From a virus: 64,000 bases of DNA. How positions within the stretch are numbered: position 1 is the first letter of the stretch; each line of letters opens with the position of its first letter. The notes beneath the pieces were generated by a model. The model saw only the letters and a program-made list of their open reading frames with translations. It was not told where the DNA came from and ran no database searches. The position numbers and the translations under genes are program-made. Below, one piece after another: positions 48-12,670 of this stretch. The DNA is taken from the IMG/VR virus record IMGVR_UViG_3300025598_000027, positions 1 through 64,000 of that record. One strand, given 5' to 3'.

Positions 48-123
48 TGGCTCCGTGGGTAGGGATCGAACCTACGACATTCTGATTAACAGTCAGATGC
101 AACTACCGCTGTGCTACCACGGA
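48..123 (-). tRNA. tRNA-Asn (anticodon GTT)
   Basis: A complete cloverleaf on the minus strand. The 7-bp acceptor stem (TCCGTGG with CCACGGA) is perfect and is followed by discriminator G and an encoded CCA end. The anticodon stem TCTGA/TCAGA closes the loop CTGTTAA, giving anticodon GTT (Asn). The T arm is GTAGG-TTCGATC-CCTAC. It is the last recognisable element of an RNA cluster read leftward from the promoter at 482-510. The remaining 47 bases to the window edge hold no gene I can support. Confidence 0.97.
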
Positions 124-270
124 ATAATTGTTTCTTCAAGGATGCACCAGCTGTCTAACTTCTGTCACCACCGTCGATTACAGCTGATTATACGGACTGA
201 GAAGTCTACCTCTGCGTTAATTATTCTGCAGACGCTTCGGGCTCTGATGCACCCGTGAAGAAACAATTAT
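124..270 (-). ncRNA. Putative structured RNA 1, closed by a 15-bp perfect stem
   Basis: Bases 124-138 and 256-270 are perfect 15-bp inverted complements (ATAATTGTTTCTTCA and TGAAGAAACAATTAT). They close a 117-base interior that has further short helices, including a GTCTGC/GCAG..AGAC hairpin. The element abuts the tRNA-Asn directly and has no credible reading frame. T4 carries two stable non-tRNA RNAs of similar size (RNA C and RNA D) in its tRNA cluster, and this could be an analogue. No primary-sequence similarity was recognised. A long terminal hairpin serving tRNA processing is an alternative. Confidence 0.55.
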
Positions 271-278
271 CTCTATCA

Positions 279-413
279 AGATACACCGTGTAGGATTCTC
301 ACCTACGTAGCCTTTATACGGAGACCCTCCAGGTCCCCAAAAGGCATCTTAGTTTACTGCACGACGTGAAACAAAATCTCACGCATACCGTGTCCCAGAT
401 CAACGGTGTATCT
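279..413 (-). ncRNA. Putative structured RNA 2, closed by an 11-bp stem, with a T-arm-like hairpin
   Basis: Bases 279-289 and 403-413 form a perfect 11-bp terminal stem (AGATACACCGT/ACGGTGTATCT). On the minus strand the interior holds a CGTGAG/TTCACG hairpin and a GCCTTT/AAAGGC helix enclosing GGGGACC/GGTCTCC. Next to the terminal stem is a 5-bp GTAGG/CCTAC hairpin with a 7-base loop, which resembles a tRNA T arm. The T loop (TGAGAAT) does not match the usual TTC consensus, so it is not an ordinary tRNA. It lies between the promoter and RNA 1 and is presumably cotranscribed. Confidence 0.55.
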
Positions 414-481
414 ATAAAGAGATAACCAAAGTTATCTTCTTTTTTCTTACGATGTCAAAGAGCGAATTTCACATTATACAC

Positions 482-510
482 ATTATAACTTAGTAGCAGT
501 AAAAAGTCAA
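482..510 (-). promoter_or_regulatory. Sigma70-type promoter for the tRNA/RNA cluster
   Basis: On the minus strand TTGACT, a 17-base spacer, then TATAAT. It sits just past the terminator of the preceding gene and upstream of the two structured RNAs and the tRNA. A leader of about 60 bases with a small GATAAC/GTTATC hairpin (421-436) follows. Confidence 0.85.
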
Positions 511-514
511 GCAT

Positions 515-546
515 AAAAAAAAGCGGGGATTTTTCGGTCCCCGCTT
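515..546 (-). terminator. Intrinsic terminator after the HTH gene
   Basis: On the minus strand a 9-bp GC-rich stem (AAGCGGGGA/TCCCCGCTT, 521-529 with 538-546) is followed by a run of eight T. It separates the small HTH gene at 572-766 from the RNA cluster promoter. Confidence 0.9.
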
Positions 547-571: not shown

Positions 572-766
572 TTATGCGAGGCTATACTTATTTGTTACAC
601 GACCCTTGGTATCTACATGAGTATTAAGATTAATACTATACCCTTGCTCGCGGAGATAATGGACTACACGACCTGGATTGCCTACGTTATAACGTGCGGC
701 GATTTGCTTCGCGGTCATTTCTTTACCCGAGAGGAATGCATTCAATACTTTTGCAGTCTTTGTCAT
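572..766 (-). CDS. Small helix-turn-helix protein
   Basis: A 64-residue protein whose core (TAKQIAARYNVGNPGRVVHY) reads as a winged-helix/helix-turn-helix, with a recognition helix followed by a basic beta wing (VDTKGRVTNKY). Proteins of this type are common small genes in aquatic T4-like phages, and it is probably a DNA-binding regulator with unknown target. I chose the ATG at 766 rather than the upstream one at 781 because AAGG lies about 8 bases before it. A TATAAATA late-promoter box lies 24 bases upstream and a strong intrinsic terminator follows, so the gene can be an independent late unit. Confidence 0.75.
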   Translation of the reverse strand: MTKTAKVLNAFLSGKEMTAKQIAARYNVGNPGRVVHYLREQGYSINLNTHVDTKGRVTNKYSLA

Positions 767-789
767 ATAATAACCTTTCATGTTAAATC

Positions 790-8184: not shown

Positions 8185-9494
8185 CCGAAAAATGACTCCA
8201 GACTTGCAGCTGCTGATGACGCATATGGGTCGGGCATACTATGAGCCGCCATATAATCATACCATTCTTTATCTTCCCACATTCCTGGAGAAACGCCATT
8301 CCACAATGGGCGATGTAAAGGATGACTGTGATTCATGCGTCGCTCTTCAACATATTGTTTGCGGAGATGTTCATAATCCCAAGACTTCAGTTCAACCATT
8401 TTCTCACGGAAATAGGACACAAGAGTAAGACGGTCATTATCATCCCCGATAAGAGCATCATTACCGTGAATCCCGCCGTGATTGTTAACCAGCAACATAT
8501 CTCCAGGCTGAAGGTTAATAGCCACCCTAAACTCAGGTAGGATGAACTCAGCGCCTTTCCAACCTTTTCCTTCTGGGCCTGTGATACCACAAATGTTAGA
8601 GAATCCTTCATGCAAATCTCCCGCATCTCGGTGGCAAGCTGTACGCCAGTTATGATTGACTGTTAGAGTAGTAAATACTGTTCCTTCAACAAGGAATTTA
8701 GGATCAAGCTGATCGGCAGCTTTACGTTGGTTACCCCAGCGAACAGGAAGCAATTCTTTAAACTGAGCATTCAGTTTCTGAAGGTAGGGATAAGCCATCG
8801 CAAATTTCTCGCGATTCTTTTCAGTATAAGAAGTCTCGCGACCGTATGGGATACGAGGATAACGGTCAAAGTAACCAGCAATACCAGACATTACTGACTG
8901 AGCATAATTTGTTTCGGAGATCCAGTTATCGGCGATATTCTTAGCTTCAACAATCTGTTCTTCTCGAGATTTATTATGGATACCAGCAAGCCACTTATCA
9001 AACCAACCATGATATTCAGGATACAATTTAGTAACTTCGGAACGCAACCATACACGTCCGCGAGTCTCTTCTTTAGAACCTTTCTTATGGCTCTCTTTAA
9101 TTGATTCGATAGTAGTACCATCATCAATAGTATTTATTGGGCGAGCAATAAAAGAAAGGATTTCTTCCTGCTCTGGTGTTACCCAATCACGATTACCACG
9201 ACCTTCAGCTCCAAGCTGATCGCCACGAGGGCCAGCAGCCATACCACGGTTCTGCGATTCAACAGCAGCATCTCGCAATCCAGCATACGCCATATCGCAT
9301 TCTTCTTTAGTAAAGATATTTTTGCGGTATTTGAAGATAATGTTTTCTTCATCGGCTTTGGTGGGATCCAGAGGATCTAAAGCATACACGTCACAATCAT
9401 AATCAATCAAACGATCTGCGTAATCTTTGCATGTAATAAATGTGCCGAGAGTTTCTTCAGCATCATGTTTAGGCAATATAAGAACTTCTACCAT
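8181..9494 (-). CDS. TET/JBP-type 2OG-Fe(II) dioxygenase (DNA 5mC hydroxylase)
   Basis: A 437-residue protein. Residues about 265-365 carry the TET/JBP dioxygenase signature: TVFTTLTVNHNWRTACHRD leading to the iron ligands H288-x-D290, then GW.GAEF.LPEFRVAI.LQPGD, distal H343 in NNHGGIHGN, and 2OG-binding R355 in DRLTLVSYFRE. Homologues in phages hydroxylate 5-methylcytosine in DNA, after which glycosyltransferases decorate it. The two genes immediately downstream are candidate glycosyltransferases, completing an oxidation-glycosylation pathway. The N-terminal 200 residues are an additional region without clear motifs. No cytosine methyltransferase is in the window. GGAG precedes the ATG, and a perfect early promoter lies 44 bases upstream of it. 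Loss of a methyltransferase elsewhere would undermine the pathway. Confidence 0.88.
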   Translation of the reverse strand: MVEVLILPKHDAEETLGTFITCKDYADRLIDYDCDVYALDPLDPTKADEENIIFKYRKNIFTKEECDMAYAGLRDAAVESQNRGMAAGPRGDQLGAEGRGNRDWVTPEQEEILSFIARPINTIDDGTTIESIKESHKKGSKEETRGRVWLRSEVTKLYPEYHGWFDKWLAGIHNKSREEQIVEAKNIADNWISETNYAQSVMSGIAGYFDRYPRIPYGRETSYTEKNREKFAMAYPYLQKLNAQFKELLPVRWGNQRKAADQLDPKFLVEGTVFTTLTVNHNWRTACHRDAGDLHEGFSNICGITGPEGKGWKGAEFILPEFRVAINLQPGDMLLVNNHGGIHGNDALIGDDNDRLTLVSYFREKMVELKSWDYEHLRKQYVEERRMNHSHPLHRPLWNGVSPGMWEDKEWYDYMAAHSMPDPYASSAAASLESFFG

Positions 9495-10964: not shown

Positions 10965-12670
10965 GATGCTATCCTGCTAAAGTTTTTATGTTTTTCAAAT
11001 TTAATTACATTGTCAAATTTATCACTAATCTGATCAGTCTTATGACTAATGATAAACGTATTCGTATCAATCGTGATAGTATTTAAGATCTTCATAAATT
11101 CTTCGGTACCATTAGCGTCAAGAGAACTATCAAACACTTCATCCATGATCAGAATGTTAGTATTTATGGAGTTACGAAGTTTAGCCACTGCTCGCCAAGC
11201 AAACAGAATAGCCAGATTGATACGCATCTTTTCGCCTTCGCTGAAAGATGTATAGGAAAATTCATCACGGAACCTAGATTTAATCGTCTCATTAAATTCT
11301 TCATCGAGTTCAAACTGAACAAGAAACTCCATCGCTGATAGATATTTGTTGATCAGTTTATTGATGACTGGGACATACTGACGAATAATCTTAGACTTAA
11401 TACCGCCATCCTTCAACAGAGTAGATGCAGCCGCCAATATCATCTTATCATCATTAAGAGAATGTAATCTCTGGCTTATATGGGCCAGTTCAATCTCAAG
11501 ATCTGATAGTTTAGACTCGTCCTTATCTTCTTCAGTCTGACGGATAGAACTAATCTCATTTTCTATCTGGTTGATGTAGGTATTCAACGAACTTATCTTA
11601 GTTGATATGATATTCAATTCGATAGTCTTTTGACGGATATTATCGTTTATAGACAACATCTCTTTTATCTCAGTATCAGTCTTATCATATTCCTCGGATA
11701 GTTTAGTTAGGCCATCCTGAATCTCAGATATATTTGTCTTTCTAGACTCGATAGCATCGCACTTAAAATCTTTATCAATCTCTTGTTTGCATGTTGGGCA
11801 GCTATCATTATCATGAAAGAAACTGACTTCTCTGTTCAATACAGCAAGATTGGCCTCGATCTTATGGCGTAGACTTGATAGTTTATTCATCTTCTTTTCT
11901 AGAGATTCAAGACTACCAGTCTTTTTAGCCATATCTTGTACGATAGTTTTTATATCTTCAATCGTTCCGTTGTGATCTTCAATCTGTTTCTTAGATGCCT
12001 CTATGCGATCTTTCTTTTCAGCAATGATAACATCATTGTTATTTTGCATCTCTAACATATGTTCGCGGATAAGTTTAATCTTTTCCTGTACTGATTTCTG
12101 ATTATACTGTAGATCAGTTATATTATCTCTATTATCAGTAATCTTATCTTTCAATAGATTATTCATAGTCGTGAATATTTGAAGATCTAACAGGTCTTCA
12201 ATAATCTCTCGGCGAGAACCAGTAGATAACTGCATAAATGGCAGGAACGTAGCCGAACCCAACACGACTACCTGACAGAATGACTTATGATTGATCTTCA
12301 GGATATATTTTTCCAATACCTCCTGATAATCTTTCATCTCTGCGGATTGATTCAGAAGCTCATCATTCTGATATACTTCAAATACAGTCGGCCAGTTACC
12401 CCTACGAATCTTAAAGTTATTTGGACCAATAGAAAACTCAACTTCTACCATCAAGTTTTTCTTGGTTATAGAATTGATAATCTGCTGTTTCTTAATCTTA
12501 CGGAAAGGTTTACCAAACAGAGAATATGACAATGCGTCAAGAATGGTTGACTTTCCAGCACCATTCTCGCCGATAATAAGAGTCGTATTATGTTTGTTTA
12601 AATCTATTTCAGTAAATACATTACCAGTAGAAAGAAAATTCTTCCAGCGTAATTTTTTAAATACAATCAT
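10961..12670 (-). CDS. 46: Recombination endonuclease subunit gp46 (SbcC/Rad50-like)
   Basis: A 569-residue SMC/Rad50-type ATPase. It has Walker A GENGAGKST (34-42), a long bipartite coiled coil around a zinc hook CPTC (residues 291-294), the ABC signature SFSEGEKMRINLAI, and Walker B NILIMDEVFD. With gp47 it resects double-strand ends for recombination-dependent replication. Length and layout match T4 gp46 (560 aa). It overlaps gene 47 by four bases and the deformylase-like gene by four bases. Confidence 0.96.
   Translation of the reverse strand: MIVFKKLRWKNFLSTGNVFTEIDLNKHNTTLIIGENGAGKSTILDALSYSLFGKPFRKIKKQQIINSITKKNLMVEVEFSIGPNNFKIRRGNWPTVFEVYQNDELLNQSAEMKDYQEVLEKYILKINHKSFCQVVVLGSATFLPFMQLSTGSRREIIEDLLDLQIFTTMNNLLKDKITDNRDNITDLQYNQKSVQEKIKLIREHMLEMQNNNDVIIAEKKDRIEASKKQIEDHNGTIEDIKTIVQDMAKKTGSLESLEKKMNKLSSLRHKIEANLAVLNREVSFFHDNDSCPTCKQEIDKDFKCDAIESRKTNISEIQDGLTKLSEEYDKTDTEIKEMLSINDNIRQKTIELNIISTKISSLNTYINQIENEISSIRQTEEDKDESKLSDLEIELAHISQRLHSLNDDKMILAAASTLLKDGGIKSKIIRQYVPVINKLINKYLSAMEFLVQFELDEEFNETIKSRFRDEFSYTSFSEGEKMRINLAILFAWRAVAKLRNSINTNILIMDEVFDSSLDANGTEEFMKILNTITIDTNTFIISHKTDQISDKFDNVIKFEKHKNFSRIAS

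Follow-up and report, generated by a model that had tools for sequence, protein, structure and literature searches.

The window, a 64,000-nucleotide stretch of a 98.8-kb record classed as a virus, carries within its positions 1 to 600 the leader of a tRNA operon transcribed from the minus strand. In the direction of transcription, a terminator and a promoter come after the end of a winged-helix gene, and then two structured elements (element 2, then element 1) and a tRNA-Asn gene:

572-781, minus strand: winged-helix gene (HTH_39; PF14090, E = 3.4e-6, above the family cut-off; alignment A1)
521-546, minus strand: intrinsic terminator of the upstream unit, a 9-pair stem with six G-C pairs, then a T run
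482-510, minus strand: sigma-70-type promoter of the tRNA operon, TTGACT-17-TATAAT, agreeing with 11 of 12 consensus positions
453-464, minus strand: boxA-like motif CGCTCTTTGACA, kept in relatives, with a matching motif 5' of 16S rRNA genes
421-436, minus strand: small hairpin GAUAAC-UUUG-GUUAUC (strands a and b)
265-427, minus strand: element 2, a type II cassette, its stalk formed by 403-427 with 265-289
306-290, minus strand: GUAGG-UGAGAAU-CCUAC, a T-arm-like hairpin that stacks on the stalk of element 2
124-270, minus strand: element 1, a type I cassette (24-sequence alignment A8; 141 bits with covariance model R1)
226-231, minus strand: palindromic loop P2, CUGCAG (GUGCAC or GCGCGC in relatives)
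181-186, minus strand: palindromic loop P4, CAGCUG (UGGCCA, UCGCGA, UCGCGCGA or CAGCGCUG in relatives)
48-123, minus strand: tRNA-Asn(GTT), the operon's first tRNA (ARAGORN; Rfam RF00005, 61.9 bits)

A first-pass annotation had described two structured RNAs here, lacking reading frames and lying between a strong promoter and a tRNA, and this description held. Both elements are more stable than any of 200 dinucleotide shuffles, with folds of -58.2 kcal/mol (z -5.89) for element 1 and -64.8 kcal/mol (z -7.32) for element 2, and the transcribed strand contains no open reading frame of at least 40 amino acids across them. The perfect 15-bp terminal stem claimed for element 1 was confirmed at 124-270, where a handle pairs 256-270 with 124-138 and encloses an inner stem of 244-254 with 140-150; the tRNA-Asn begins immediately 3' of this handle. 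For element 2, which had been placed at 279-413, the perfect stem of 10-11 bp stood but the ends did not, as the pairing extends outward into the longer stalk. The T-arm-like hairpin reported beside the terminal stem of element 2 is also present. That first description did not include the boxA-like motif, the hairpin upstream of the elements, the palindromic loops, or the fact that relatives exchange bodies and that unrelated bodies share closing handles.

Each element is single-copy in the record. The neighbouring genes are T4-like as judged by sequence similarity, with a sliding clamp near the locus that is 40-43% identical to the clamps of Synechococcus and Pelagibacter myoviruses. A near-identical contig, L007, continues beyond the edge of the window and contains 24 tRNA genes, and therefore the cluster comprises at least 24. 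The winged-helix gene lies upstream of the operon promoter both here and in the relatives that were used, and is a conceivable regulator of the tRNA operon.

Related contigs, which come from freshwater sites, were retrieved from IMG/VR using the sliding clamp, one neighbouring gene and the HTH protein as queries, and scanning with just the handle pair provided further relatives. The same leader recurs in approximately 40 related viral contigs. In those that are syntenic, a promoter follows the HTH gene, and CGCTSTTTGACATYGTTGGAA, a hairpin and the stem-closed elements (one or two per leader) lead on to the first tRNA, which may be that for Asn, Lys, Pro, Tyr, Ile or Gln; most relatives have a similar promoter in the same leader position. 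The elements are cassettes that share a closing stem, GUUGUUUCUUC...GAAGAAACAAC, each unit running from a 5' handle, GUUGUUUCUUCAYG, to a 3' handle, YUUGAAGAAACAA, with an inner stem of about nine pairs that is specific to the body it encloses. The resulting stalk, approximately 22-26 bp in length and interrupted by a single Y-U mismatch, is a long and near-perfect double-stranded helix around an RNA, as expected of RNase III-type processing sites. The first-pass annotation had made its proposal depend on conservation of the stems in relatives, and they are conserved, with handle variants changing on both sides (GUUAUCUC with GAGAUAAU, versus GUUGUUUC with GAAACAAC). The spacing is similarly regular: the start of boxA is mostly 34-42 nt from the first 5' handle, and the last 3' handle is 2-4 nt from the first tRNA in many leaders, although not universally, as several have another structured RNA in between.

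Within this constant frame, the bodies fall into approximately 10 unrelated types, grouped by eye and conserved within each type. Comparison of leaders indicates that bodies have been exchanged between otherwise near-identical backgrounds: where two leaders share at least 80% identity across the promoter and boxA, their bodies are in most cases unrelated, and L111/L080, L121/L063 and L050/L049 are 99% identical upstream, compared with 43-52% in the body, which is the background level. Type I is found with several different partner cassettes, in first or second position, and the same body recurs before different tRNAs. Type III (L072, L051, L024, L099 and others) contains a tRNA-like domain that has only a stub for an anticodon arm and that scores 25 bits on the tRNA model in L072 (3588-3655), below the 29-bit cut-off; its invariant CGCGA loop is complementary to an invariant UCGCG at the stub, in the anticodon position. 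T-arm-like hairpins are also found in the bodies of L009/L013, L071/L073, L078, L119, L120/L121 and L122. In L078, L120, L121 and L122, such a hairpin stands beside one with a CUGAUCA loop (palindrome UGAUCA) in cassettes that are otherwise different.

That unrelated bodies share inverted ends and are exchanged between genomes would be expected of mobile DNA, namely short terminal-inverted-repeat elements (MITE- or attC-like) landing in the tRNA leader, with the fold as a by-product. We consider this very improbable. Such elements would not account for the near-fixed place and spacing relative to boxA, nor for the single copy in this genome; moreover, the bodies covary as RNA, and the handles change on both sides, which is explained by pairing but not by a protein-bound DNA end. 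Integron gene cassettes similarly have inverted ends in common and are exchanged as units at a single site, but no recombinase or attC features are known here, and the units are RNA families rather than genes. A second alternative is a purely cis-acting leader, in which stalks and bodies only insulate the first tRNA or aid its processing and the sequence of the body is irrelevant. The last handle is often just 2-4 nt from that tRNA and the same place is filled by unrelated bodies, as this would predict, but within a type the helices of the body show covariation and loop motifs are conserved, type I retains palindromes in two loops, and the same body occurs with different partners before different tRNAs. 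This conservation within types argues that the bodies are not mere filler, making the cis-acting explanation unlikely.

For element 1, a first alignment of 11 type I sequences contained 34 pairs with 98.4% standard pairing, and 11 pairs had changed on both sides, a number reached by none of 500 shuffles, with one to three such pairs found when the structure was slid along the alignment. The final alignment of 24 distinct sequences (A8) raised this to 13 pairs (0 of 500 shuffles), although the type I sequences are related, such that the shuffle counts overstate their independence. The slid and shuffled controls retain this relatedness, and hence more weight is put on the sequences fetched later and on the palindromes. 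The covariance model R1 scored 15 type I matches at 131-151 bits, whereas matches to the handles alone reached at most 53 bits in 777 kb. Because 13 pairs change on both sides, element 1 is, on this comparative evidence, a true RNA family; as it has no match in Rfam, this bears out the earlier suggestion of a new class of phage RNA.

The loops of element 1 vary in a different manner. The P4 loop is palindromic in all 24 sequences, comprising 11 distinct loops, even as its sequence changes, compared with a chance level of approximately 21-30% when each loop is shuffled; the P2 loop is palindromic in all 14 long-form sequences, as one of the three hexamers listed above. The later type I members were fetched through the conserved 3' strand, after the palindrome idea had been formed, and those with a recognised 5' motif all keep the palindrome, including AGCGCU inside CAGCGCUG. 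In UCGCGCGA, two central bases have been added with the symmetry preserved. L149 is divergent, with a different P4 arm, and its UUCGAA palindrome is weak evidence. For the CAGCUG group, an alternative partner of the loop could be AGCUG in the 3' strand of P1, with which the other palindromes could not pair. As adjacent bases within one loop cannot pair within the same chain, their covariation points to contact between two molecules. Self-complementarity that persists while the sequence changes is the mark of a kissing loop, and the same argument has been applied to the homodimers of OLE and GOLLD (PMC12286853); hence two copies of element 1 most likely join through their palindromic loops and act as a homodimer. 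Palindromic loops also occur in L104, L120, L121, L122 and L078; some, but not all, of the approximately 10 body types have them.

Element 2 is rarer, with type II relatives only in L052 and L089 among the related contigs. The covariance model R2 separates these (170-256 bits) from the next best match (52 bits). Three pairs have changed on both sides, a count that 41 of 500 shuffles also reach, in an alignment of three sequences of which two are nearly identical. The T-arm-like hairpin is invariant across the three, and accordingly has no covariation signal.

The 5' end of the transcript has a counterpart in cellular genomes. The motif GCTSTTTGACATYGTTRGAA has 10 exact matches in 84,980 genomes: two are 235 and 252 nt 5' of a 16S rRNA gene in Robiginitomaculum (Rfam-confirmed), three are on contigs from alphaproteobacteria, which end 90-140 nt past the motif and read like rRNA leaders, and the remainder in cellular genomes are apparently incidental. 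When 10 16S loci of the same class were sampled, four had GCTCTTTGACAT or GCTGTTTGACAT 180-371 nt upstream, although these represent three genomes, one being the match already known and two being copies within one genome; both the CTC and CTG forms of boxA occur upstream of the sampled genes. The exact 20-nt leader motif is rare, occurring in two of 190 alphaproteobacterial genomes with one mismatch allowed, but it is too specific to gauge how frequent such leaders are. The phage leader therefore opens with an alphaproteobacterial rRNA-type boxA, its sequence being that found in the rRNA leaders of a host group, and with the beginning of an rRNA-leader-type sequence that matches some, not all, alphaproteobacterial rRNA leaders. 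We also infer that the host is an alphaproteobacterium. There are strong grounds, by analogy with work in E. coli (PMC10250234), for expecting this boxA to load NusB-S10.

Three strands are involved in closing the first cassette. In 28 of 28 first-cassette leaders, strand b supplies both the 5' handle and the 3' side of the small a:b hairpin, which has a GNRA-type, UUCG or UUUG loop; in the window, the stalk of element 2 has b as its 5' strand. Across the handle variants GUUAUC, GUUGUUUC and GUUGUCUC, strands a and c both change to match, and the a:b hairpin and the full b:c handle are mutually exclusive. When the whole leader of the window is folded, a:b is retained, with the inner stalk of element 2 formed alongside it; as the two can coexist at equilibrium in this model, strand exchange may be only partial. 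These mutually exclusive helices could suggest a sensor or attenuator, in which the operon is controlled by a switch between a:b and b:c that responds to a ligand or to uncharged tRNA. This is improbable, since the transcribed strand has no terminator-like site between the cassettes and the tRNA, boxA favours read-through, tandem cassettes of different types would require several sensors in series, and the palindromic loops would be left unexplained. The likeness to an rRNA leader, in which a strand after boxA awaits its trailer, points instead to the mechanism that we infer from the analogy.

Neither element matched a known RNA family. Rfam searches at gathering scores returned only tRNA, and at E-values up to 5 only tRNA and chance-level matches; neither element was called as tRNA or tmRNA by ARAGORN or Rfam, and the Rfam models of GOLLD and ROOL did not match. 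Searches of isolate phages with the two elements and three leaders, including that of the window, using blastn gave tRNA-Asn matches or none, one such match being the T-arm stretch of element 2 (E = 4), and tblastn with the HTH gene found no match in the same phages. A large survey of candidate structured viral RNAs, by Fremin and Bhatt, may contain some of these RNAs as unnamed alignments.

The stable RNAs C and D of phage T4, of which the first-pass annotation had proposed the elements to be counterparts, are the closest comparison. They too belong to a tRNA operon, are of similar size at approximately 120-140 nt and are expressed, with functions unknown (PMC9697503, PMC3014915); a T-arm-like hairpin, CCGGG-UUCGAAU-CCCGG, lies close to the 3' end of rnaC (L134, 1405-1551), as one also does in element 2. 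However, searching the T4 locus (L134) with R1 and R2 found nothing, and the candidate homology was rejected. The T4 RNAs lie at the distal end of their cluster, after tRNA-Arg, whereas the elements here precede the first tRNA; both lack the long closing stalk, no boxA was seen and there is no similarity of sequence or model; and rnaD (z -0.94) is no more stable than its shuffles. Homology is thus very doubtful, and RNAs C and D are analogues at most.

The best overall explanation, to which we assign a probability of roughly 0.6, is that a phage tRNA operon has a modular leader in which boxA precedes a payload of RNA cassettes that are processed into stable RNAs. The boxA would load the host NusB-S10 antitermination complex, enabling the long untranslated operon to be read through. 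Strand b would pair with a first, and then with c once this has been transcribed, closing the stalk around the cassette in a manner resembling the leader-trailer helix around 16S rRNA, for which the E. coli rRNA operon is the precedent (PMC10250234). RNase III would then cut the stalk and RNase P the 5' end of the tRNA, freeing stable RNAs of approximately 100-150 nt; by their structure, the stalks are probably the RNase III sites at which this release occurs, and a joint role for the two enzymes is a reasonable deduction. The released RNAs might act in trans against a host target or a tRNA-linked defence, a tentative suggestion prompted by the tRNA-like character of several bodies and the swapping of whole bodies. 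It is similarly speculative that the cassettes are decoys for tRNA-directed host factors, under shifting selection. A fuller and equally tentative proposal is that this is a locus for exchangeable RNA payloads, several of them tRNA mimics or self-dimerising molecules, that are released by RNase III, are driven by a borrowed antitermination leader of the rRNA type and have diversified through the exchange of cassettes. Were it correct, an arms race, against a host function or a defence targeting tRNA or translation, would be expected to produce such exchange of whole cassettes.

Each single ingredient of this system has precedent, yet the RNAs and the cassette arrangement match no family tested or found. 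The E. coli rrn operon is also untranslated and includes tRNAs, and its leader has boxA near the transcript start, an early strand that pairs with a later one and a stalk around a structured RNA (PMC10250234); the phage leader differs in being phage-encoded, with small exchangeable cassettes rather than rRNA inside, and in a local hairpin that uses the handle strand first. The lambda nut site also has boxA followed by a hairpin, and many of the phage leaders share its GNRA-type loop, but others have UUCG or UUUG, the stem sequence is tied to strand c and no N-like protein was identified. GOLLD and ROOL are likewise phage RNAs near tRNA islands that form homo-oligomers through kissing loops, here only predicted, with palindromes that switch sequence (PMC12286853); they are several times larger, and the cassettes differ in having no Rfam match, a common closing handle and exchange as units. 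The leader would be an rRNA-type antitermination signal ahead of a phage tRNA operon, and a limited literature search found neither boxA in such operons nor cassettes of this type described. The question of what non-coding RNAs do in phage tRNA clusters dates back to T4 RNAs C and D, and for GOLLD and ROOL structures are available but functions are not. In this compact modular system there are base-level predictions for the excised unit, for the handle shared by the cassettes and for the dimer contact, which opens expression, processing, dimerisation and function to separate tests.

Further structured RNAs occur in these clusters. A second conserved RNA of approximately 190 nt, with ends resembling CUUAUUAGG/CCUAAUAAG, is found between the cassette and tRNA-Lys (L024 from 5489, L051 from 5526 and L080 from 5518; also L032, L041, L072, L077 and L090), although in L072 it precedes tRNA-Ile instead. 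Another conserved structured spacer (GTGCACCGCAAGACACAA...) lies between tRNA genes in L009 (16231-16392), L011 (approximately 8730-8890) and L013 (14264-14425). In L007, approximately 560 nt without annotated genes (10980-11540) separate tRNA-Asn from tRNA-Tyr and contain several hairpins, with a tRNA-like stretch near 11323-11400 that is not called by ARAGORN.
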